A program made the translations under genes and the position numbers. Source: a virus. From it: 35,661 bases of DNA. Location of the stretch: the IMG/VR virus record IMGVR_UViG_3300030389_001864, positions 1 to 35,661 of that record; one strand, written 5' to 3'. Positions 308 through 27,718 of this stretch are shown piece by piece. Numbering within the stretch: position 1 is the first letter of the stretch; every line of letters begins with the position of its first letter. The notes beneath the pieces are model-generated. The model worked only from the letters and a program-made list of their open reading frames with translations. It had not been told where the DNA came from and did no database searches.

Positions 308-1459
308 ATGGCAGGAGGAAGGGGTAAATATGAGTGGTTGTGGTATGACCCATCCAGAGAGCAGTACCGTGCTCTGATCTATATCAACGGGGTCAGGAAG
401 AGACCCAAGTTGATGACACGGAAAGAGGAACTGTCTCTGATTGAGAACGGGGCAGAGGATTGGGAGATTGAGAAGATCCTGAACGAGAGGTATAAAGAGA
501 TCCTAGATCAGTATGTCAACCCTGCAGAGGGGATGACCCTGAATGCTCTCTTGAATGACTACTGGACCCTGCATCTCAGTAATGAGAAACACGGTGCTCA
601 GTATGAGCTTTACCATAATTTCTGGAGGAAGCAGTTAGGAAAGAGACTGATCCAGGAGATTAAGAAGGGAGACATTGCAGTAGCCAGAGACACACTGAAG
701 GACCGTGCTCCCTCCACTAAGAACAAGTATGTCTACAGTCTCAGTTCTGTCTTTGAGTTTGCAGTCGAGAGAGATTGGTTAGAAGACAACCCTTGCAGAC
801 GGGTCAAGTCCCTCAAGGTGAAAAATGAACGAGACCGATGGTTGTCCACAGAAGAGTTGGACAGACTGTATGAGGAGTGTAAGAACTCCAACAACCCACA
901 TCTTTATCTGGCAGTCAGGATATCCATCCAGACAGGGTGCAGACGGGGGGAACTGTTTCCTAAGAAGTCCTATAAGAAGGACAAAGAGGGCAGACCCCTC
1001 AGAGACCCACAGAAGGTCTTTGACAGTTATGTGGGAGGGTTGAAGTGGGAGAACGTGGACCTAGATAAAGGTCTGCTCCTGCTCACCCACACCAAGACAG
1101 GACTGAACCGCAAGGTTGCAGTCACAGGAGATGCTCTCGATATGCTCAGAGACCTCTCCAAGACACCCTGCATCCACGGATATGTATTCCACATAAACGG
1201 TGTACCCGTGGCAGGGCAGACTCCATTGAGGGAGTCTTTTGAACGAGCGTGTCAACGTGCAGGTCTGGAAGACTTTCACTGGCACGATCTCAGGCATTGT
1301 TGTGCATCCTATCTTGCCCAGAGTAAGGCAACCGATCTGGAGATTGCTATCCAGTTAGGTCACTCCGGGACAGATCTGGTGAAACGCTATGCCCACTTGA
1401 GGGAGGACAACTCCCTGAACCTTGTCGAGAAGATCGAAAGGAGAACAGGTAAATTATGA
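308..1459 (+). CDS. int: Tyrosine-family site-specific integrase
   Basis: This 383-aa tyrosine recombinase would integrate the phage at attP (2189-2430). The catalytic set is visible: R212 in TGCRRGEL, K263, H326-x2-R329 in WHDLRH, H352 in LGHSGT and nucleophile Y361 in KRYAHL. Residues about 75-165 form the core-binding SAM-like domain (it includes LLNDYWTLHL and NPCRRVKSLK). The N-terminal ~70 residues would be the arm-binding domain. An extra ~26-residue, lysine-rich stretch (about 217-243) separates GEL from GLKWENVDL, which are normally nearly contiguous. The start is ATG with AAGGAG eight bases upstream. The stop overlaps the next mini-gene as ATGA, so integrase and repressor share an operon. 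Confidence 0.95.
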   Translation: MAGGRGKYEWLWYDPSREQYRALIYINGVRKRPKLMTRKEELSLIENGAEDWEIEKILNERYKEILDQYVNPAEGMTLNALLNDYWTLHLSNEKHGAQYELYHNFWRKQLGKRLIQEIKKGDIAVARDTLKDRAPSTKNKYVYSLSSVFEFAVERDWLEDNPCRRVKSLKVKNERDRWLSTEELDRLYEECKNSNNPHLYLAVRISIQTGCRRGELFPKKSYKKDKEGRPLRDPQKVFDSYVGGLKWENVDLDKGLLLLTHTKTGLNRKVAVTGDALDMLRDLSKTPCIHGYVFHINGVPVAGQTPLRESFERACQRAGLEDFHWHDLRHCCASYLAQSKATDLEIAIQLGHSGTDLVKRYAHLREDNSLNLVEKIERRTGKL

Positions 1460-1542: not shown

Positions 1543-1700
1543 AATGGATTAATTGCCGTGGAGGTTTTGTTCATTACCATCCACCACCCAAATATTTAAT
1601 TACAGATTCGGCCCCAAAGGGTTCAAGTATTAATTACGCCTATACACTTAGGCGTAGGAAAAAATCTACTACGCAGTACCACCCACCACCAGATAAATGA
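1539..1700 (+). CDS. 53-aa mini-protein with two YHPPP motifs
   Basis: The ORF fills the gap between the 28-aa gene and the repressor, with ATGA overlaps at both ends. The product carries YHPPP twice, near residue 13 (HYHPPPKY) and at the C-terminus (QYHPPPDK), separated by a basic LRRRKK stretch near residue 42. I do not know the family. GGGGGGAAAA just upstream gives a weak ribosome site. It may bind the repressor or a host protein, but nothing in the sequence fixes a function. Confidence 0.55.
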   Translation: MKWINCRGGFVHYHPPPKYLITDSAPKGSSINYAYTLRRRKKSTTQYHPPPDK

Positions 1701-2080
1701 AAGCAAAAACAGAAGAGTCCATAGCACTAGGATTACGTCTAAAGGAAGCCAGAAACAGAACTGGACTGAATCAGGCAGAATTCGCAGAAAAGATAGGAGT
1801 TGCCCGTGACACAATCTCAAGGGCAGAGGTGGGAGCACAATCTCCCACAGAAAAATTATTAAGAAAGATCACAGAAGTTCATGGTATTGACTTTGTGTGG
1901 TTACTGACAGGAGATACTTCATCAAGAGAAAAGGAGGAGTATGACACACTAAAAGAAAAGTATGAGAACCAGGTAAAAACTATTACAGAGCAAAAAGCAA
2001 CCATTGCTGCTCTGGAGAAAACAATAACGATTTTGGCAACACAACTTAGAGGATCTTCTAATGACGAAAGGAGTAGTTAG
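1697..2080 (+). CDS. XRE-family (Cro/CI-like) repressor with coiled-coil tail
   Basis: This 127-aa protein has a lambda-repressor-type helix-turn-helix at about residues 12-66 (LKEARNRTGLNQAEFAEKIG, then TISRAEVG). The C-terminal half (about 78-117) is a heptad-rich coiled coil (EEYDTLKEKYENQVKTITEQ) and would supply dimerisation. There is no S24 autoprotease domain, so RecA-driven self-cleavage is not expected. It is the fourth gene of the integrase operon, coupled to the preceding gene by ATGA. It is the likely master repressor, though a Cro-like or activator role cannot be excluded. Confidence 0.85.
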   Translation: MKAKTEESIALGLRLKEARNRTGLNQAEFAEKIGVARDTISRAEVGAQSPTEKLLRKITEVHGIDFVWLLTGDTSSREKEEYDTLKEKYENQVKTITEQKATIAALEKTITILATQLRGSSNDERSS

Positions 2081-2432: not shown

Positions 2433-2924
2433 TTACTCTGGCAACCCCGGTGTATATCGAACCTTACCCTTGACCCTGGATGCAGTAAGAACCTCCATCT
2501 TGTTGTCTTGGTCCAATGAGTCATAACTGACATGGACCCAACCTGAATTTGGCCCCTTCTTAGGGTCATAGAACTCCAAAATTAATTGTGAAAAACGGAG
2601 ATTGTCTCTGATCCAGACCGCAAGTTCAAGGTTGGATATTTCTTCAGAGATCACCTCAAAATCTGCTGCAGCCTTGGTAAAACTGCAACAATGATCTGAG
2701 GTGTCTGACCCCCCTGCAATTTCATTCACTTCGGGATTTCTGAAACAACTCGAAACACGAACCCGTCCAAAGTGATCTCTCACAGGCTGAAGCACGTTCT
2801 GTGTCAGAGCAGTCATGTTCACCAGTGCTTGAGGTGGTGGATTAAACTGTTCTTCTATTCCGTGCCTGACTGCGATGGTTGAAGCAACCAATTCTTTCAG
2901 AGAAAAATTCTTGGACAGGTTCAT
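2433..2924 (-). CDS. Peptidase M15-type endolysin
   Basis: This 163-aa protein resembles peptidase M15A (D-Ala-D-Ala carboxypeptidase/L-Ala-D-Glu endopeptidase) lysins, which cut the peptide stems of peptidoglycan. The N-terminus NFSLKELVAS and the RVSSCFRNPEVN segment are typical. Zinc ligands would be H78, D88 and H131 (GWVHVSY). The frame is open upstream to 3029, but ATG 2924 is chosen because the domain begins there and AGGGA precedes it, directly after the preceding gene's stop. There is no signal peptide, so export would depend on a holin. It is the last gene of the late operon. Confidence 0.85.
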   Translation of the reverse strand: MNLSKNFSLKELVASTIAVRHGIEEQFNPPPQALVNMTALTQNVLQPVRDHFGRVRVSSCFRNPEVNEIAGGSDTSDHCCSFTKAAADFEVISEEISNLELAVWIRDNLRFSQLILEFYDPKKGPNSGWVHVSYDSLDQDNKMEVLTASRVKGKVRYTPGLPE

Positions 2925-2928
2925 ATTA

Positions 2929-3195
2929 CTATCCCTTGATAAGATCCAAGACGGATTTGTGACCATGAGAGTTGTCACCGTCCACAGCACTGTCAAGTGC
3001 TTCTCGTACTTCTTTGGGAAGTTTATCAAGATGTGGTTCTAGGTGTTCTGCTGCTAACGATTGTGCTTTATCAGCGACAATATCTTTCAGCATGTTAGCC
3101 ACGAATGGCAGGACCAGATTGAGCATAACTTCTTCCTTTCTTTGTTTGGGGTTAATGAAGTCATAAAAAGTCTCAATTATTTTTGTTAAGTTCAT
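2929..3195 (-). CDS. Small lysis-cassette protein of unknown function
   Basis: The 88-aa product starts at ATG 3195 behind a very strong GGAGGAGG site and overlaps the preceding holin candidate by 23 nt. A modestly hydrophobic helix (MLNLVLPFVANMLKDIV, residues 24-40) is followed by a polar helical segment with EHLEPHLDKLPKEVREAL. It could be a membrane-associated lysis accessory protein. A shorter start at M24 is possible. I do not recognise the family, and the role is suggested only by its place between holin and endolysin genes. Confidence 0.7.
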   Translation of the reverse strand: MNLTKIIETFYDFINPKQRKEEVMLNLVLPFVANMLKDIVADKAQSLAAEHLEPHLDKLPKEVREALDSAVDGDNSHGHKSVLDLIKG

Positions 3196-21058: not shown

Positions 21059-21970
21059 TCATACTCCCTGTCTGGATTCGCGCAGAGTTCTTGCTGCTCT
21101 TTCGAGTGCATCAAGTCTTGATATTGGACCCTTCTTCTCTGCCTTCACCGGACGGGAAGTGCCTTTGTTAGAAAGTGTCCTCTGATGACTTTTTTGGACT
21201 TCACCCTGCTCTGCCTTTTCTGAGGGTGATGCGATATTATAAATCTTTTTGACTTTTTCGTTCTGTACTGCCTTATCCATGAAATCACGGTAGGTCTGTT
21301 CAACCTGCTTGAGAACTTCCTCATTGGTGAGGGGTTCTTGGTCATTCATGGCATAGTGTTTCTGAATGTCCAAAACGCTTTGTTGTGCTTCATCCCAGAA
21401 GGATGAAACCAATGGATACTGTTCACTCTCATCTACCACACTCTTCAACTCAGAAACGTAGGACTGCACCTCCTGGGAAGCCATTTCCTTCTGTCTCTGC
21501 TTGTCTGCTTCAAACTTTTCTTTCTTCAACTGTGAGATTTCTTCCTGCATCTTCTGCAGTGCAGTCTTCTCACTGGATCTGTTAAGCACCTGATCTGTCA
21601 TGGACTCATAAGATGAGCCTAACAGTTCAGATGCTTCCAGATGTTTGCCTTCCTCAATGAGAGTCTGTGCTTCTCTGAGTTTACTTAGATCGTCATTCTT
21701 CTCCTTGAGTTCCTGTTCCTGCTTAAACAGTTCTCTCTTCTTCTTCGCAACCTCACTGAAGATCTTGGAAACCTTGGGTTCCTGCTTCTGAGGTTCTGGT
21801 TCTGGTGTCTCTTCTGCTACAGGTTCTGCTTCTACTTCAGGTTCTGCTTGAGCTTCATGGGAAGTGATCCCTTTCTGTCTGAAAAACTCTTTTGCAGAAT
21901 CTGACAGTTGTGGAGTCTCCTCCACTACGGTTTCTTCTACGGTCTCTTCGACTACAGTCTCTTCGGTCAT
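21059..21970 (-). CDS. Capsid scaffolding protein
   Basis: The 303-aa product is highly charged. The first 75 residues are E/V/P-rich repeats (EETVVEETPQ, AEPEVEAEPVAEETPE). A long coiled coil follows at about 75-180 (KRELFKQEQELKEKNDD), and the C-terminus is basic (SRPVKAEKKGPISRLDALER), as expected for capsid contact. It lies between portal and major capsid genes, with ATGA coupling to the portal gene. No protease motif is seen, so removal would not be by self-cleavage. Confidence 0.8.
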   Translation of the reverse strand: MTEETVVEETVEETVVEETPQLSDSAKEFFRQKGITSHEAQAEPEVEAEPVAEETPEPEPQKQEPKVSKIFSEVAKKKRELFKQEQELKEKNDDLSKLREAQTLIEEGKHLEASELLGSSYESMTDQVLNRSSEKTALQKMQEEISQLKKEKFEADKQRQKEMASQEVQSYVSELKSVVDESEQYPLVSSFWDEAQQSVLDIQKHYAMNDQEPLTNEEVLKQVEQTYRDFMDKAVQNEKVKKIYNIASPSEKAEQGEVQKSHQRTLSNKGTSRPVKAEKKGPISRLDALERAARTLRESRQGV

Positions 21971-23805
21971 ACGGGTAATGGCGATTCTGGGGTTTCTGGA
22001 GTCTCAGGCATCTCAGGCATTAAACCCGTTGGTGCAGGAGTCTCCCCTGCAGGAGAAGCAACTGCAGGTGATTCTGGAGACCCCTGCGGTTGTGCCTGTA
22101 GTTGTCTGAGCATGGTATTGCACTGGACAATAAAATCATCCAAGAGTGCAATCTTTTCGGGTTCTACACCCTTCTGTCTTGCTTCCAGATAGGCCAACTG
22201 AAACCTCTGTCTGGCAAGACTAAGATCCATGTACGGTTCTGGACCTATGTACTCTCCTTCATCCAAGATCTTGGAGATCCTCCACTCAATATCATTTTCT
22301 GCTGCTTCATAAATCTGTGTTACTGCATTCAGATCTGGGAAGTCGAGCAGTCTGGTGATCTGTTCCTTACTGTCTATGAGATTGATGTTGATCAACTCCT
22401 GGACGGTCTGCAGTTTTCCTGCAGGAAGTGACGGGAGAATGGACACAGGATAAGGTTCAAGAATGAACTCCTCCCGTGCCACACGGATCTTCTCAAAGTC
22501 CACTTTGGTGATCTCCCGTCTGAAAGTGGTCTGGACAGGGAATGATCCCTGCTCTGAGATAATCTCTTCTGCTAAGTCAAAGTAGTGTTCTGCAGCATTC
22601 ATGAATGCTTGCTCATAACGTCTTCCAATGAGGATGAACCTCTCTGTCTCAATGTCATGGTAGATTCTGAGGGCTGCCCCTGATTCCAGACCTGCAGGTT
22701 TTTTCCCTGTGGCAGACAACTCTGAGATCCCTGAGATCTCGTATGCCCTCTGATACAGTCTGTCCAGATGGTTGTAGACTTCAGGGTGCATGGCTGCAGG
22801 AGTGTAAACCGTTGGTGGTTGACCGTTGTAGTGAATGATCGTTCCAGGTTGGTTCCTAATGTGAGAGGGTGCCACCTTGGACCCTGCCTGTAAAAACACT
22901 AAAGGAACACTCAGAAGGTGCATGGACTGCTGAATCCTGACACACAGGGCATTGATCTCTCTCTGGACAGGGTACAGTTGCTCTGCTAAAGGTATCCCAC
23001 CAAATCCCACGATGGAATCACTCCATTTCAGGAACAAAAACGGAAACTGAGACCGTGTGTACTCCTCATCCACCAGTGTGACGTTCTCGATACAGATTAC
23101 GTGTCTTCCATCACCTGATGTGGGAGATGTGGGCAGGTGCCATGCTTCCACACACTCAATCATGTCTGAATCTTCCGTTTCATACTGTTTTGAAGACCCA
23201 AAACTGTTTATTTGGTTGGCAAAACCCGGAAAACGGTCCAAAAGGAACGATTTGTGGACTTTTTTGACCTGATAGAGATTCTGAGGTTCTCCATACAGTG
23301 CATCATCCATGTCCCAGAGGATTTCATTTGCAAAAACCCTCTCGACATAGATTTTTCCGCTTTCTTGGTAGATTTTGAGCACCCCAAGGTCAAAAATGCA
23401 GGAATCCTGGAAGATTTTGGGCATCACCTCATACAGTTTTGTCTGCATGAACAGACCCTCCATCATCCTGCCCATCATCTTGGCTTTGTTACGGAGTGCA
23501 TAGTCTCCACCTTCTGTAAGGTACATGGGTCTGGGTCTGTTCTTACCAATCTTGGAAGTGATGGTGTCAATCATGGACTGAGTGACATTCAACCTCATCT
23601 TCATGTCATCTTTACGGTGCATGGAGTACCCTGCAGACTTCACCACACCCTGTCTGAAGTCCTCTAACGAGTATGTCCTCTGTGAATACACCCTCAGATG
23701 CTCCAGATTCGCAATCATGCGGTCATAGTGATTGTTATTGAGTTCATGGATCACTCCCATCAACTCTGCATGACAATCATCTAACTCAGATTCCCACCAA
23801 AACAT
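21967..23805 (-). CDS. Portal protein
   Basis: This 612-aa protein fits a podovirus portal by length and by order (terminase, portal, scaffold, capsid). Recognisable segments are NVTQSMIDTITSKIGKNRPR near residue 75, FQDSCIFDLGVLKIY, QREINALCVRIQQSMHL in the stem/clip region, and ISGISELSATG-type sequence in the crown-proximal part. The last ~60 residues are P/E-rich with repeated MPETPETPESP and probably disordered. It would form the dodecameric DNA channel and contact terminase. The start overlaps the upstream small gene as TGATG. Confidence 0.85.
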   Translation of the reverse strand: MFWWESELDDCHAELMGVIHELNNNHYDRMIANLEHLRVYSQRTYSLEDFRQGVVKSAGYSMHRKDDMKMRLNVTQSMIDTITSKIGKNRPRPMYLTEGGDYALRNKAKMMGRMMEGLFMQTKLYEVMPKIFQDSCIFDLGVLKIYQESGKIYVERVFANEILWDMDDALYGEPQNLYQVKKVHKSFLLDRFPGFANQINSFGSSKQYETEDSDMIECVEAWHLPTSPTSGDGRHVICIENVTLVDEEYTRSQFPFLFLKWSDSIVGFGGIPLAEQLYPVQREINALCVRIQQSMHLLSVPLVFLQAGSKVAPSHIRNQPGTIIHYNGQPPTVYTPAAMHPEVYNHLDRLYQRAYEISGISELSATGKKPAGLESGAALRIYHDIETERFILIGRRYEQAFMNAAEHYFDLAEEIISEQGSFPVQTTFRREITKVDFEKIRVAREEFILEPYPVSILPSLPAGKLQTVQELININLIDSKEQITRLLDFPDLNAVTQIYEAAENDIEWRISKILDEGEYIGPEPYMDLSLARQRFQLAYLEARQKGVEPEKIALLDDFIVQCNTMLRQLQAQPQGSPESPAVASPAGETPAPTGLMPEMPETPETPESPLPV

Positions 23806-24026
23806 CAGCTTCTAAAATGTGAGTTTACCATTGTGTCCTGATCCACAGGATCTCTAAATTGAGGAATCACCTGTGGTTGCTCATCCATCTCCATGTTGAA
23901 CTCCACACTGATTCCCATTCCCTCAAACGTCTTCACATTAGACTCCTTGAGGAATGTAATCATCTCCCTGATCTCTCTCAGGTTCATCTCATCTCTGAGC
24001 ATTTGCTTTTCTTCTTTTAGAAACAT
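23805..24026 (-). CDS. Small acidic helical protein upstream of portal
   Basis: The 73-aa product starts at ATG 24026 within TGATG, overlapping the preceding gene by one nt (a GTG at 24029 is an alternative start). The N-terminal half is a charged helix (EEKQMLRDEMNLREIREMIT), and the C-terminal half is acidic and Q/P-rich. Unlike the four genes before it, it is acidic. It may pair with the basic neighbours or with the portal; no family is recognised. Confidence 0.65.
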   Translation of the reverse strand: MFLKEEKQMLRDEMNLREIREMITFLKESNVKTFEGMGISVEFNMEMDEQPQVIPQFRDPVDQDTMVNSHFRS

Positions 24027-24268
24027 CACCAGTTCTTACAACTCCAGTATCTTGCTTTGGTCTTTGGACCGGGAGAGTCACAGTTGTGCCGTGCTCTGAA
24101 GGACTTCCGTGCTGCAGGATTGGACTTCCTGATCTTCATGTTTGGATCTCCAAATCTCACAATCTTCACCTTGTTTCCATCCTTCACAAACACCTTGAAC
24201 TTTTTAGACTCACCAGGAGTCCTGATGGGTTTGTTCAGAGTGACTTTCTTCCCTCTGTACGTTGCCAC
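24026..24268 (-). CDS. Conserved small basic phage protein, 80 aa
   Basis: The product begins MATYRGKKVTLNKPIRTPGE and continues with KIVRFGDPNMKIRKSNPAAR, SFRARHNC and YWSCKNW. I recognise this as a type conserved in marine phages, of unassigned function. It has two Cys (C63 and C77), usable for metal or disulfide, and many K/R. The GTG start overlaps the previous TAG (TAGTG). The position next to the portal suggests a head-assembly or DNA-packaging accessory role. Confidence 0.75.
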   Translation of the reverse strand: MATYRGKKVTLNKPIRTPGESKKFKVFVKDGNKVKIVRFGDPNMKIRKSNPAARKSFRARHNCDSPGPKTKARYWSCKNW

Positions 24269-24420
24269 TACTTCCCCACCTTCTTCATTGCCTGTTTGTG
24301 TGCTTCTGTAAACGTTTTCCCTCCACGCATCAACTTCCTCATCATTGCCATGTGCTTCTGAGTGTGATGCTTGGAGTGCCTAGACAGAGTATCCTTCTGT
24401 CTTTTGGTCAACTGTTTCAC
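24268..24420 (-). CDS. 50-aa very basic protein (LTKRQKDTL family style)
   Basis: The ORF starts at GTG 24420 inside GTGA, shared with the stop of the 21-aa gene, and ends in TAGTG with the next gene. The product (it begins MKQLTKRQKDTLSRHSKHHT) has about fifteen K/R and six His, and a middle MAMMRKLMRGGKTF. It resembles a small lysine/histidine-rich protein type seen in marine phages. It likely binds nucleic acid or the acidic neighbour; no function is established. Confidence 0.7.
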   Translation of the reverse strand: MKQLTKRQKDTLSRHSKHHTQKHMAMMRKLMRGGKTFTEAHKQAMKKVGK

Positions 24421-24482
24421 TTCTTCTTTTTCTTTTTTTTCTTCTTACCGTAATTGACCTTCAACCCACCATACTTCTTCAT
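24417..24482 (-). CDS. 21-aa poly-lysine peptide
   Basis: The ORF starts at ATG 24482 with AAGGAG six bases upstream, inside the end of the 89-aa gene (ATGA overlap), and stops in GTGA with the next gene. The peptide is MKKYGGLKVNYG followed by nine lysines. The exact coupling on both sides and its own good ribosome site argue that it is made. Its poly-Lys tail comes from an A/AG tract that could also slip during transcription or translation. Confidence 0.6.
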   Translation of the reverse strand: MKKYGGLKVNYGKKKKKKKKK

Positions 24483-24748
24483 GCAACTCTCCTTGCCAGT
24501 GTTTTCACATTTGTGGGCTTTCCTGCCACTCCCTGACGTTTCGACTGCTTTCTTTTGACTGCAGACCTCTTCTGTGATGCAGTCATCTTTGCAGCCTTGG
24601 CTGCAGGGACACACTTCGGATAACCCTTAGAACTGAGCGTGGCCTTTCGTCTACCACACTTGGGATGACCTCCTCCCTTCTTCTTTCGGGAGATGTCTAC
24701 CCAATTCTCAGAGAACCACTTGGTTAAACCTCCTTGTGCTCGACTCAC
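24479..24748 (-). CDS. DUF5872-like small basic protein, 89 aa
   Basis: The sequence MSRAQGGLTKWFSENWVDIS, then KKKGGGHPKCGR and YPKCVPAAKAAKMTASQKRS, ending KPTNVKTLARR, matches what I know as the DUF5872 type. It has two Cys in KCG and KCVP and is strongly basic. It starts at GTG in GTGA overlap with the 55-aa gene; AAGGAGG lies at the start of its own coding region. Function unknown. Conserved in large-virus and phage genomes. Confidence 0.75.
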   Translation of the reverse strand: MSRAQGGLTKWFSENWVDISRKKKGGGHPKCGRRKATLSSKGYPKCVPAAKAAKMTASQKRSAVKRKQSKRQGVAGKPTNVKTLARRVA

Positions 24749-24912
24749 TTCTTACTCGATTTCTGGACCCTGTATCCACCCCCACGTTTCTTGTACTCAC
24801 GGACCAACCAGGCGTTTGCATACGCTGAAGGATAGACCTTGAACTTCCTCTTCGCTGCAGCCTTGACCCTGCTATAGAGTGCTTTGTTCGTAGGGACGTT
24901 CTTGGAAGCCAT
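24745..24912 (-). CDS. 55-aa basic protein (YPSAYANAWLVREYKKRGGGY type)
   Basis: The ORF starts at ATG 24912 in TAATG with the 16-aa gene and ends in GTGA with the 89-aa gene. The product contains KNVPTNKALYSRVKAAAKRK and VYPSAYANAWLVREYKKRGG, a pattern I recognise from marine viruses. It is related in style to the C-terminal part of DUF5872-type proteins. It is basic and probably helical, with no known function. Confidence 0.75.
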   Translation of the reverse strand: MASKNVPTNKALYSRVKAAAKRKFKVYPSAYANAWLVREYKKRGGGYRVQKSSKK

Positions 24913-24962
24913 TACTTCTTCTTCTTGCCCTTCTTTTTCATTTTCTTGTGGTATCCTGGCAT
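24912..24962 (-). CDS. 16-aa lysine-rich peptide behind an optimal ribosome site
   Basis: ATG 24962 is preceded by TAAGGAGGTGAT, an essentially full complement of the 16S rRNA tail, and the TAA in it is the stop of the large terminase. The peptide MPGYHKKMKKKGKKKK has nine lysines of 16 residues and ends in TAATG with the next gene. It may be a functional peptide or mainly a landing site that loads ribosomes onto the downstream chain. Confidence 0.6.
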   Translation of the reverse strand: MPGYHKKMKKKGKKKK

Positions 24963-24971
24963 ATCACCTCC

Positions 24972-26486
24972 TTAGTTAAGTTCCCACCATTCCAATTCAT
25001 CTTCTTCCTCCACCCTCTGTACCTTTGCCAACATATCGGACTCCATCTCCCTCTCCAGAGCATCAAAGTAGTCCTGTGACCCAAACTCAGGCTTTGGAGT
25101 CTGCTCCCTGTGGAGGTAGTGCAGTGCTTCTCTCCACGCATAGAGAGCAGCATCACAACAATGGTTCTCATTGTTCTCATTCTCAATGAACCTGCCCTTC
25201 TCCATCTGGTTCTGATCCCACTCCAAGAGCACCAACTCATCCACATACTGCTCCGTCTTCGGACCATGACAGATCTGAATCCTCCCCCTCTCAAAGTCTG
25301 AGTTCATCAACCGTATGTGATCTAACTTCCTCGACTTCTCTGCAGGGAACAGATTCAACTCAAACCTTTTGTTCATCTCCTCACAAACCATTTTACCGAG
25401 ACCCCCGGTGTCTACGACACTCCTCACGAACCTGTACCTTTCTTCGAGTCTCTTAATCTTTTCCGCAATCTCTGCAATGGAGAGATGTGGAGCTTTTTCG
25501 GCATGTACTGCATAGACCTCTGGGACATCCTCTGAAAACGCAAATACCACGAAAGCAGTGCTATCCTCATATCCCAGATCCACTCCGAGTACGAAATCCC
25601 AGTGACTCTCTTCCAAGTCTGCTTCCACCAAGTTCTTCTCAGGAGAGAACCTGTAAACCATGCTCTCTTCATCCCTTGTCCACTCTCCAAGATACTCCCT
25701 CCTGAATATTGGTGTCTCATCACTCCACCCATTCTCCTCCTTCCTCCGTGCTAACCAATCTCCTGCACCCGGAAGATGGGGGTTGTCCAAAAGTGTCCAG
25801 TTGTGCCTACTCCAAGACGATGCTTCAAAAACATCTGCATCATAGAAGTACCCAGAACTGGAAGCATTCGGTGTCCCAAACATCCAAATAGACCCATCCA
25901 AGTCCAATGTCGCAGGTTCCAATACATCCTCAATCAACGTGTGTAAAATAGAAGTTCTCATACTCTGGGCTTCGTCTATCACACATAGCGAATACTTCGG
26001 TCCTCTCCACTTATCCACCTCATCCCTGTCCTGTGCTCCACCAAGTACAATCGAACTCCCATTACTCAACTTCACCGTCAGATCGTTCTGCCTGAACTCT
26101 AAGTCTAACCCAAATGCCCTGTCCATCTCTCCCAAAGTGTTCCACAAGATCCTCCTCGCATTCTTGATCGAGAGGGTTATGTAAGGACACATGATCCCTG
26201 GAGTTGAGATTGCTGCACTGAGTAACCCCACTGCTGCCAAATGTGTCTTTCCTGCTCTCCTTGAACACCGTGCTAACTTCTTCTTCCTCTCATCTCCAAT
26301 AAAACCCGTTTGTGAAGGAAACAGACTCCTCTGCAACCCCTCACCCTTTAGCCTTAGCTCCTCCTGCTTTCTTTGCTTTTCCCGACTTCTGAACAACATC
26401 TGCTCCAGAAGTGCTCTTTGCTGTGGACTGAACCCCAGATCGTTCTTGACTGCCCTCTTCTTCTTTGACCCTGACTTTGTAGGCAT
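24972..26486 (-). CDS. terL: Terminase large subunit
   Basis: This 504-aa protein is the ATP-driven DNA packaging motor and nuclease. Walker A is CSRRAGKT (74-81), Walker B is LCVIDE (167-172), and the coupling motif is MFGTPN (202-207). RNase H-like nuclease acidic residues are D303 (LGVDLG), D359 (VVDTGG) and D445 (NHCCDAALYAW). GGAG lies seven bases before ATG 26486. The first 146 nt overlap the upstream gene in another frame. The subtype suggests a headful packager, consistent with circular permutation. Confidence 0.95.
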   Translation of the reverse strand: MPTKSGSKKKRAVKNDLGFSPQQRALLEQMLFRSREKQRKQEELRLKGEGLQRSLFPSQTGFIGDERKKKLARCSRRAGKTHLAAVGLLSAAISTPGIMCPYITLSIKNARRILWNTLGEMDRAFGLDLEFRQNDLTVKLSNGSSIVLGGAQDRDEVDKWRGPKYSLCVIDEAQSMRTSILHTLIEDVLEPATLDLDGSIWMFGTPNASSSGYFYDADVFEASSWSRHNWTLLDNPHLPGAGDWLARRKEENGWSDETPIFRREYLGEWTRDEESMVYRFSPEKNLVEADLEESHWDFVLGVDLGYEDSTAFVVFAFSEDVPEVYAVHAEKAPHLSIAEIAEKIKRLEERYRFVRSVVDTGGLGKMVCEEMNKRFELNLFPAEKSRKLDHIRLMNSDFERGRIQICHGPKTEQYVDELVLLEWDQNQMEKGRFIENENNENHCCDAALYAWREALHYLHREQTPKPEFGSQDYFDALEREMESDMLAKVQRVEEEDELEWWELN

Positions 26487-26691
26487 CCTCAGACTCCATC
26501 ATCAATATATTCCCCACAGGGATCATGTAACTCACCATCCTCCCATCTAACTGCGGAGGTGCTCCGTGTACCCTCAACATCCCATCCTTGAACTCCATCA
26601 TCACCCCATGGTCTGTCTGACTCAATCCCCTACCAGACTCCACCCCAGGAAGACTCACTGAATTTGCAAATACCACTCTCTCAATCTTCAT
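26341..26691 (-). CDS. Hypothetical protein overlapping terL
   Basis: This 116-aa product starts at ATG 26691 (ATGA with the GNAT-like gene, AGGA seven bases upstream; a GTG at 26697 is less likely). The N-terminal ~75 residues look folded (MKIERVVFANSVSLPGVESG, then GRMVSYMIPVGNILMMESED). The C-terminal 45 are low-complexity, K/G/S/A-rich, and lie over the terL start. Similar proteins sit beside terL in related phages, but I know no function. Confidence 0.65.
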   Translation of the reverse strand: MKIERVVFANSVSLPGVESGRGLSQTDHGVMMEFKDGMLRVHGAPPQLDGRMVSYMIPVGNILMMESEDAYKVRVKEEEGSQERSGVQSTAKSTSGADVVQKSGKAKKAGGAKAKG

Positions 26692-27239
26692 ATCCACATC
26701 CTGTAAGGGTTCCAGACAAACTTCTTGTCCCTAAAATGATTCAACGCAGGTGTTCTATGAGAAACCTCCACATTGCCCTCTAAATACCGTAATCGAGGAA
26801 ACCCATCCTCCTGGTCTGGTACCTCATCTCCCAACCCTGTACGGGCCAATAAATAACTCCCCAGACCCATTCTCCGTAAGTCCTTCTTCACATACACCCA
26901 GTGCAGACAGTCCTTCTCAAACACACAGTACCCAAACACATGGTCATCCTCCTCCGGGTCTGATGCCACAAGGACCAGACTGCGGTCTAAAATTTTTTTT
27001 AGGATTGACTGATGTTGGGAATAGAGGGGGGTACCCCCACCGGGGGGTAGGTTGATCGATGGGCTGCCGATCCTGCCTTCGTGCCAGATTGGGAACTGCA
27101 GAGCACTCCGCAGCCAGGAGGAAAGGATCAGGTTTCGATCTCCTGATCTCTCTGATCTGATCCAAACTGAGGACTCAAGAGATTCAGAATCTGTTGTGTC
27201 TGCTCTGTGATCCGTTCCGATCACTGATTCTATGTCCAT
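26688..27239 (-). CDS. GNAT-type acetyltransferase-like protein in the terminase module
   Basis: The 183-aa product has the GNAT core at about 85-131: VLVASDP, VFGYCVFE and the acetyl-CoA pyrophosphate loop VYVKKDLRRMGLGSYLL (R/Q-x2-G-x-G form). The N-terminal segment WLRSALQFPIW is typical of phage copies encoded between terminase subunits. Start ATG 27239 lies in TGATG with the terS stop; a TTG codon just upstream is not needed. The substrate is unknown. A GGGGGTACCCCC palindrome lies inside the gene. Confidence 0.75.
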   Translation of the reverse strand: MDIESVIGTDHRADTTDSESLESSVWIRSERSGDRNLILSSWLRSALQFPIWHEGRIGSPSINLPPGGGTPLYSQHQSILKKILDRSLVLVASDPEEDDHVFGYCVFEKDCLHWVYVKKDLRRMGLGSYLLARTGLGDEVPDQEDGFPRLRYLEGNVEVSHRTPALNHFRDKKFVWNPYRMWI

Positions 27240-27718
27240 CAAGTTTGATCTTGGGTCTGAGATTGGGACTGCATGGGCAGCACTCCTGAGACTTGGGAGG
27301 ATATGTCCTGATCTTTGCGGATCTCATCGAGCAACTGTGTATCAGACAGTTTATGAATAGCTTCAACCGTGAATTTATTCTGAATTACATCTTGATACAT
27401 CTCAGGTGCTCTGTTCTTCAGATAGAATATTTGAGCGGTGACGTTACCAGACAGAGCAGAATCGAAAAGTGCATTGGAGACTTTGCCAATTGCAGACAAT
27501 TTCCCCTTTTTTATAGCCTGATCAAACTGAGAGAAAGCTGCTTTCTTCGCATAGACTGTGCGCTCATCCACTCCAAGCACAGTGGCAATCTGTGACATAT
27601 TGAACCCAAGACCTGAATACTTCTCAACCTGCTCCAAGACAGACGGTGTAATTTCAAACCGTTTGCGTCCCGTTTTCTGCGGTTTTCTCTCAATCTCAAC
27701 AATCTCGCCTGAACTCAT
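27239..27718 (-). CDS. terS: Terminase small subunit
   Basis: This 159-aa protein has an N-terminal helix-turn-helix (about 25-60: YSGLGFNMSQIATVLGVDER TVYAKK-type spacing) and a central oligomerisation part with LFDSALSGNVTAQIFYLKNR, a signature of small terminases. It ends in a Q/S-rich tail (MQSQSQTQDQT). It recognises the packaging start and hands DNA to TerL. It is the first gene of the 25-kb late operon and starts at ATG 27718. Confidence 0.85.
   Translation of the reverse strand: MSSGEIVEIERKPQKTGRKRFEITPSVLEQVEKYSGLGFNMSQIATVLGVDERTVYAKKAAFSQFDQAIKKGKLSAIGKVSNALFDSALSGNVTAQIFYLKNRAPEMYQDVIQNKFTVEAIHKLSDTQLLDEIRKDQDISSQVSGVLPMQSQSQTQDQT

Follow-up and report, generated by a model that had tools for sequence, protein, structure and literature searches.

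A swappable cassette of small basic proteins between the terminase and portal genes of an uncultured phage, with a probable place inside the head

Phage DNA is usually viewed as being neutralised by cations and polyamines. Among described systems, those closest to the one reported here are the internal proteins of phage T4, which are small and basic, occur in about 300 copies of each protein per head, bind DNA under low-salt conditions and are dispensable on standard hosts (PMC9026906), and the basic virion proteins of the chlorovirus PBCV-1, which are tied to its packaged DNA (PMC3281028). Two domain families are also of concern. Tlr6F, or the OLV2 family (DUF5754, PF19058), is described as an orphan family, with neither a function nor a structure assigned, that is conserved in almost every polinton-like virus as well as in several virophages, in many giant viruses and in some phages (PMC4642659, PMC3671162). 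DUF5872 (PF19197) is listed together with DUF5754 in the algal giant virus CpV-BQ1 (PMC12085832). We analyzed a DNA stretch of 35,661 nucleotides (hereafter the window), corresponding to positions 1 to 35,661 of the IMG/VR record IMGVR_UViG_3300030389_001864. The virus is uncultured and probably a marine one infecting bacteria. Between its genes for the terminase large subunit (TerL) and the portal protein lies a chain of seven small open reading frames (ORFs), here termed g1 to g7. We consider it moderately probable that g1–g6 encode small basic internal head proteins that accompany, and probably bind, the packaged DNA.

The ORFs g1 to g7, of 16, 55, 89, 21, 50, 80 and 73/74 aa, are located on the minus strand. 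An earlier note, made from the sequence alone, had described the chain with these sizes, joined from g1 to g7 by TAATG, GTGA, ATGA, GTGA, TAGTG and TGATG, and both sizes and junctions were found to be exact. The terminase and portal flanks that it named were confirmed by PHROG matches (given below), and with them the chain comprises nine genes, TerL at one end and the portal at the other; the g7–portal junction is a further TGATG, absent from the list in that note. The full-length ribosome site claimed upstream of g1 is present as AAGGAGGTGAT, and the stop codon of TerL lies inside it (TAAGGAGGTGAT-ATG). The claim of six very basic products and a last acidic one was also correct: net charge is +9 for g1, +15 for g2, +23 for g3, +12 for g4, +13 for g5, +19 for g6 and −6 for g7, and the nine-lysine tail that had been pointed out belongs to g4. 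The features are the following:

24972..26486, minus strand: TerL, terminase large subunit, upstream flank (phrog_2, E = 2.7e-38)
24963..24973, minus strand: full-length Shine-Dalgarno sequence AAGGAGGTGAT before g1 (from the sequence)
24912..24962, minus strand: g1, 16 aa, MPGYHKKMKKKGKKKK (kept after TerL; pN/pS 0.024)
24745..24912, minus strand: g2, 55 aa, +15, first half of DUF5872 by profile match (PF19197, 39.6 bits)
24479..24748, minus strand: g3, 89 aa, +23, second half of DUF5872 by weak profile match, two invariant Cys (phrog_23735, 6.6e-21; PF19197, 20.1 bits)
24417..24482, minus strand: g4, 21 aa, MKKYGGLKVNYG plus nine Lys (start overlaps the g3 stop, ATGA)
24268..24420, minus strand: g5, 50 aa, +13 (phrog_31838, 6.3e-12)
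24026..24268, minus strand: g6, 80 aa, +19, Tlr6F-like domain (phrog_7595, 3.9e-19)
23805..24029, minus strand: g7, 74 aa (from GTG) or 73 aa (from ATG at 24026), acidic pre-portal gene (adjoins the portal)
21967..23805, minus strand: portal protein, downstream flank (phrog_156, 4e-10; TGATG junction with g7)

The matches of g6, g3 and g5 to PHROG 7595, 23735 and 31838, which are known families without an assigned function, span most of the family length.

By itself, the ORF chain is only moderately improbable under chance. In 500 first-order Markov sequences with the composition of the window, chains of ORFs of at least 15 codons reached at least six linked members in 7 sequences and at least seven in 2. 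The case for real genes therefore rests on conservation. IMG/VR contains 289 relatives of g3, 87 of g5 and about 600 candidates for g6, and substitutions in g1, g2, g3, g5, g6 and g7 are overwhelmingly synonymous, with pN/pS values of 0.024 (g1), 0.11 (g6), 0.14 (g5), 0.25 (g2), 0.27 (g3) and 0.28 (g7). These six are real genes under purifying selection, and a chance origin was rejected for each of them on the basis of homologs and pN/pS. That the ORFs arose by chance, or are decaying, in an A-rich and lysine-rich spacer is thus extremely improbable: about 1.4% of random sequences with this composition do contain chains of at least six, and g4 is without relatives, but the hundreds of relatives and the strong purifying selection refute this explanation for all genes except g4. 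When IMG/VR was scanned with degenerate DNA for KYGGLKVNYG, no relative of g4 appeared, so that support for g4 comes from its position. The alternative 65-aa frame listed for g4 was discounted, because it overlaps g3 in another frame and its DUF7202 match is weak (E = 0.61). The coding sequence of the nine-lysine tail of g4 (24417-24450) includes eight consecutive A, a possible site of transcription or translation slippage giving variant tails.

The nearest relatives of this virus carry portals about 78–98% identical to that of the window; 10 contigs span the region from TerL to portal and 14 show the g7/portal region (L-numbers denote the loci or contigs of relatives compared with the window). 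g1 follows TerL in all 10 spanning contigs, as MPGYHKKMKKKGKGKKK or MPGYHKKKKGKGKKK, and is preceded by an AGGAG-type site in nearly all of them; g7 stands directly before the portal in 14/14 relatives, including those without g2–g6. The order is TerL-g1-g7-portal, with none of g2–g6, in L256-L259 and L261. In L262, which has both g1 and g7, further small ORFs lie between and beside these two. L252 and L254 read TerL, g1, a 60-aa basic gene, g6, g7 and portal, and L253 and L255 show the same arrangement plus g5. Hence g1 and g7 form a fixed frame, and g2–g6 a swappable basic cassette that is gained and lost. The earlier note had proposed small-ORF conservation in related phages as a check, frames broken in relatives being the outcome that would speak against its prediction; the frames are intact where the genes occur, although the presence of g2–g6 is not constant. 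Because g7 is found with or without g2–g6, it goes with the portal and not with the basic set; we rejected it as a cassette member, since it is acidic and keeps its place before the portal where g2–g6 are missing.

Some further small genes were observed in these relatives. The 60-aa basic gene (GLYRNINLKK..KPGQKGAPTNAAFRKAAKTAKKK) replaces g2–g4 and is located at L252:2312-2494, L253:459-641, L254:1400-1582 and L255:197-379. Within a group of fusion proteins termed MPLP/MPIP-type (L102, L103, L116 and L123), g6 has a similar stretch, GLWENIRKKK..KPA, on its upstream side. Some close relatives (L253:141-425, L262:4537-4836) have an additional ORF of about 94-99 aa (EEYLDSLKDIVGKKWY..) separating TerL from g1.

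The basic genes also occur outside this lineage. Of 80 IMG/VR loci with g3, many of them near-duplicates (about 30 distinct g3 groups), 79 contain g2, 55 contain g6 and 14 contain g5; in the 79 loci g2 is on the g3 strand and always upstream, with a median gap of 170 nt, and gene order is shuffled among the loci. Their TerL proteins are only 25–28% identical to that of the window, where matched at all. Of the g3 loci, 31 are 7 kb or longer, and in 27 of these a TerL, portal or major capsid (MCP) gene was found. PHROG searches placed the cassette between TerL and a portal of another family (L020), directly before TerL (L011), directly before TerL with the portal following TerL (L019), upstream of MCP (L001), downstream of a portal (L002) and downstream of TerL (L185). 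In the T7-like Prochlorococcus phage P-SCSP2, the scaffold and capsid genes enclose g2, then a 41-aa lysine-rich gene, then g5 and g3; free genes of this kind are also carried by the cultured Pelagibacter phage HTVC202P and Roseobacter phage CRP-2. g2, g3, g5 and g6 therefore recur together in unrelated phages, mostly by terminase or portal genes, and g1-type poly-lysine mini-proteins are present in many cassettes of other phages. A C-terminal tail of the type GGxVxVQGRGCGAxMxSKRKKTRVPRG, perhaps a shared tag for sorting or packaging, unites the g2 homologs of L036, L044, L048, L053, L061 and L065 and is also seen on the L036 homolog of g3.

Several of the cassette domains are found fused to other proteins, head proteins among them. 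The 889-aa protein of L127 combines Portal_Mu (1.5e-40), Phage_Mu_F (6e-8) and g6 (3e-37, residues 800-880), and a 388-aa protein of L143, encoded close to a portal, combines g6, Hva1_TUDOR and the head protease Peptidase_S78_2. In phage ICP1 the capsid protease gp125, encoded between portal and scaffold, bears a C-terminal g6 domain (residues 184-261, 9e-18). Both gp125 and the L127 protein thus contain a full g6 as a domain of a large head protein, whereas g6 of the window is a free 80-aa protein. L099 has g2-, g3- and g6-like domains within a single 300-aa protein, and S-BM3 has g3- and g2-like domains within one protein whose gene adjoins that of the small terminase. In the Aphanizomenon phage CL131, the 1393-aa portal ORF012 includes g6 at residues 528-604 (8.7e-13), and this portal is one of the 23 structural proteins identified in purified particles by liquid chromatography–tandem mass spectrometry (PMC6293099); it is the only virion-level evidence, and it comes from a fusion. 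In Melnitz-2 (L265:5330-7282), g6 makes up the C-terminal end of a 650-aa protein that has a cytidyltransferase-like N-terminal part and a start, MKKFSEIIEA.., resembling the capsid-targeting sequence (CTS) of T4. Because the cassette recurs in unrelated phages and g6 is fused to portals and head proteases, a location in the head is the most likely one.

The same fusions to portal, MuF and protease would also be expected if the basic proteins were prohead assembly factors, bridging the acidic scaffold, the portal and the shell and then leaving, or being incidental in the mature head, with DNA not being their target. The gene positions in P-SCSP2, where scaffold and MCP lie on either side, and in S-H1, where scaffold/coat follows immediately, agree with such a role, as do the acidity of the putative scaffold of the window (net charge −18) and the head-assembly defects of T4 IPIII mutants (PMC9026906). 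We nevertheless regard it as rather unlikely, since the cassette is missing from close relatives with the same head genes and Tlr6F-like proteins are present in viruses without tailed-phage portals (PMC4642659). On this latter ground, the overall distribution is better accounted for by a DNA-linked role than by one tied to the portal. The suggestion in the earlier note that the proteins condense DNA at the portal found nothing specific in its favour.

A further indication of head entry comes from the junctions of g6 with N-terminal extensions. We compared 40 distinct g6 proteins with extensions of 49-864 aa. A motif [IL]xE/[AGS] (the slash marks the cut), placed so that cleavage falls two residues before the g6 domain, is present in 21 of them, themselves related to each other, against 0.85 expected from the motif density elsewhere in the same extensions; the first two motif residues vary, and E-A-E is constant. 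The T4 protease gp21 cleaves after L/I-X-E (PMC9026906). Starts resembling the T4 CTS were seen in 5 of 33 extended g6 proteins and in 19 of 967 other ORFs (p = 0.0008), and phage C48C1 shows both a CTS-like start and the site (MKKFKQYIDE/G...LTE/AEYQGKKV). In the second fusion group, that of the MPLP/MPIP-type proteins, the site is mostly absent.

These data also bear on whether the products are late intracellular proteins that bind nucleic acids or ribosomes and never enter virions. All of g1–g6 are basic and some g6 genes adjoin lysis or replication genes, as such a role would predict, but the portal and protease fusions, the protease-site junctions and the detection of the CL131 portal by virion mass spectrometry make it very unlikely. 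The proposal in the earlier note that the products are packaged as DNA-binding peptides is substantially, though indirectly, supported as regards head entry, by the head-module location, the fusions, the protease site and the CL131 detection; it does not extend to the acidic g7, which stands outside the basic set.

Profile searches connect the cassette with domains of other viruses. g2 matches PF19197 with 39.6 bits, above the cut-off of 27.5, over profile positions 1-46; g3 matches positions 52-104 with 20.1 bits, below the cut-off, and 16 of 29 g3 homologs match this profile at E 0.01 or better. Judged from these matches, DUF5872 is divided in the window between two genes that overlap, g2 being the first half and g3, weakly, the second. 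The halves are separate in the window, whereas in S-BM3 (in reversed order) and probably in L099 they form one protein. g6 matches DUF5754 with 17.5 bits (E = 0.0044), below the curated Pfam cut-off of 27.4 bits. Matches at E 0.1 or better were obtained for 20 of 34 g6 domains, the best being 1.3e-4, and none of 20 records searched passed the cut-off; g6 thus resembles Tlr6F below the curated threshold. The phage g6 domain differs from Tlr6F in being larger and in bearing a RARHxC...YWSCxxW end.

The AlphaFold2 model of g6 has a pLDDT of 93. Foldseek searches with it recovered phage XkdF proteins, ICP1 ORF125 and, weakly, a Tunisvirus (marseillevirus) protein; probability was 0.91 and TMq 0.54 for Tunisvirus V9SE36, and probability 0.99 for F2Y0K8, neither being established as Tlr6F. 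A fold search of the PDB with the model gave no match, and sequence searches for solved-structure relatives of g2, g3 and g6 gave none, the Erlin and myosin-binding hits being at E 0.1 or worse. The model of g3 (pLDDT 63) was not used. An archaeal chromosomal protein of the MC1 type is listed for PBCV-1 virions; it was considered as a relative of g6 and dropped, as neither sequence nor fold gave a match.

We propose that g1–g6 would be made late, together with the head genes, and taken into the prohead, where they would stay with the packaged DNA, probably binding it and helping to neutralise or organise it, and would possibly be injected with it. Presence in the virion of this phage, DNA binding and injection are what we infer from the comparisons above. 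The proteins would act here as free small proteins, and elsewhere the same domains would enter the head through portal or head-protease fusions or as protease-trimmed precursors. Like g1–g6, the T4 proteins IPI, IPII and IPIII are small, basic and encoded with late head genes, and extended g6 homologs share with them the L/I-X-E site and sometimes an N-terminal CTS-like start. The proteins of the window, in contrast, have neither; no sequence homology to the T4 proteins is shown, and a multi-gene cassette common to unrelated tailed-phage types is a distinctive trait of the present system. Because CTS and cleavage are missing, we do not class g1–g6 as T4 internal proteins, and propose instead that they work alike. 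The gain and loss of g2–g6 fits the dispensability of the T4 proteins on standard hosts. PBCV-1 offers a second likeness, although this virus infects eukaryotes and no homology of its basic proteins to g1–g6 is shown.

As T4 internal proteins are injected, g1–g6 may, by analogy, modulate host nucleic acids, a possibility that the earlier note had listed. Another explanation is that the proteins travel in the head as effectors for host takeover or against host defence and are injected like T4 IPI, their DNA affinity being only a packaging aid. Presence or absence and swapping among close relatives are typical of accessory effectors, and T4 IPI inhibits a restriction system (PMC9026906). Unlike host-specific effectors, however, the domains are kept across Vibrio, Pelagibacter, Roseobacter and cyanobacterial phages; similar domains occur in eukaryotic viruses, and g6 is fused to the portal, a non-injected protein. 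We consider this explanation improbable.

Several observations weigh against a role of g1–g6 as internal, DNA-associated head proteins. The proteins of the window are without a propeptide or CTS, no prohead protease was recognised in its head module, and no DNA-binding fold was matched by g6. The extended proteins with the cleavage motif do not count as independent events, owing to their relatedness. g6 is distant from head genes in some phages, with an M15 peptidase as neighbour in HTVC106P and in the DNA-replication region in Melnitz, and a head gene was seen in only 8 of 57 long g6 loci. g2–g6 are not essential, given their loss in L256-L259 and L261. The lineage is without a virion proteome, its best cultured TerL match being about 25%, and a paper on Chlorella viruses states that evidence is lacking for a large contribution of basic proteins to the neutralisation of phage DNA (PMC3281028).

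Elsewhere in the window, a tyrosine-integrase-like ORF (308-1459, plus strand) and a helix-turn-helix-repressor-like ORF (1697-2080, plus strand) suggest, by their sequences, a temperate phage. A TerL search of GTDB genomes, aimed at finding the host through a prophage, gave no relative and no matching prophage, and a tRNA search of the window found none. The co-directional block that contains the cassette also includes, on the minus strand, an endolysin (phrog_894, 2433-3029), an acetyltransferase-like ORF (26688-27242) and the small terminase (phrog_309, 27239-27718).

New within the searches made are a cassette that is swapped in and out and its setting in the head module, DUF5872 in split form, the indications of a head location from fusions and cleavage sites, and a 16-aa gene supported by selection. 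With its pN/pS of 0.024, g1 is a good case of a genuine micro-gene. The phage evidence gives a direct, testable head placement for a domain of the Tlr6F class, described since 2013-2015. A broader possibility, which we advance only tentatively and hold to be rather doubtful, is that Tlr6F-like proteins, DUF5872 halves and poly-lysine peptides make up a virus-wide DNA-companion kit for genome packaging or delivery in tailed phages, polinton-like viruses and giant viruses. If so, DNA assisted by proteins in the head, generally taken not to matter, would be common among tailed phages, and the long-orphan Tlr6F would be a virion DNA-associated protein. Confirmation of the head placement would matter because basic proteins have been seen as lacking evidence for much of a part in neutralising phage DNA (PMC3281028). 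If the proposed role of g1–g6 is true, many aquatic phages would carry a basic internal-protein kit that routine gene calling has missed or left as 'hypothetical'.

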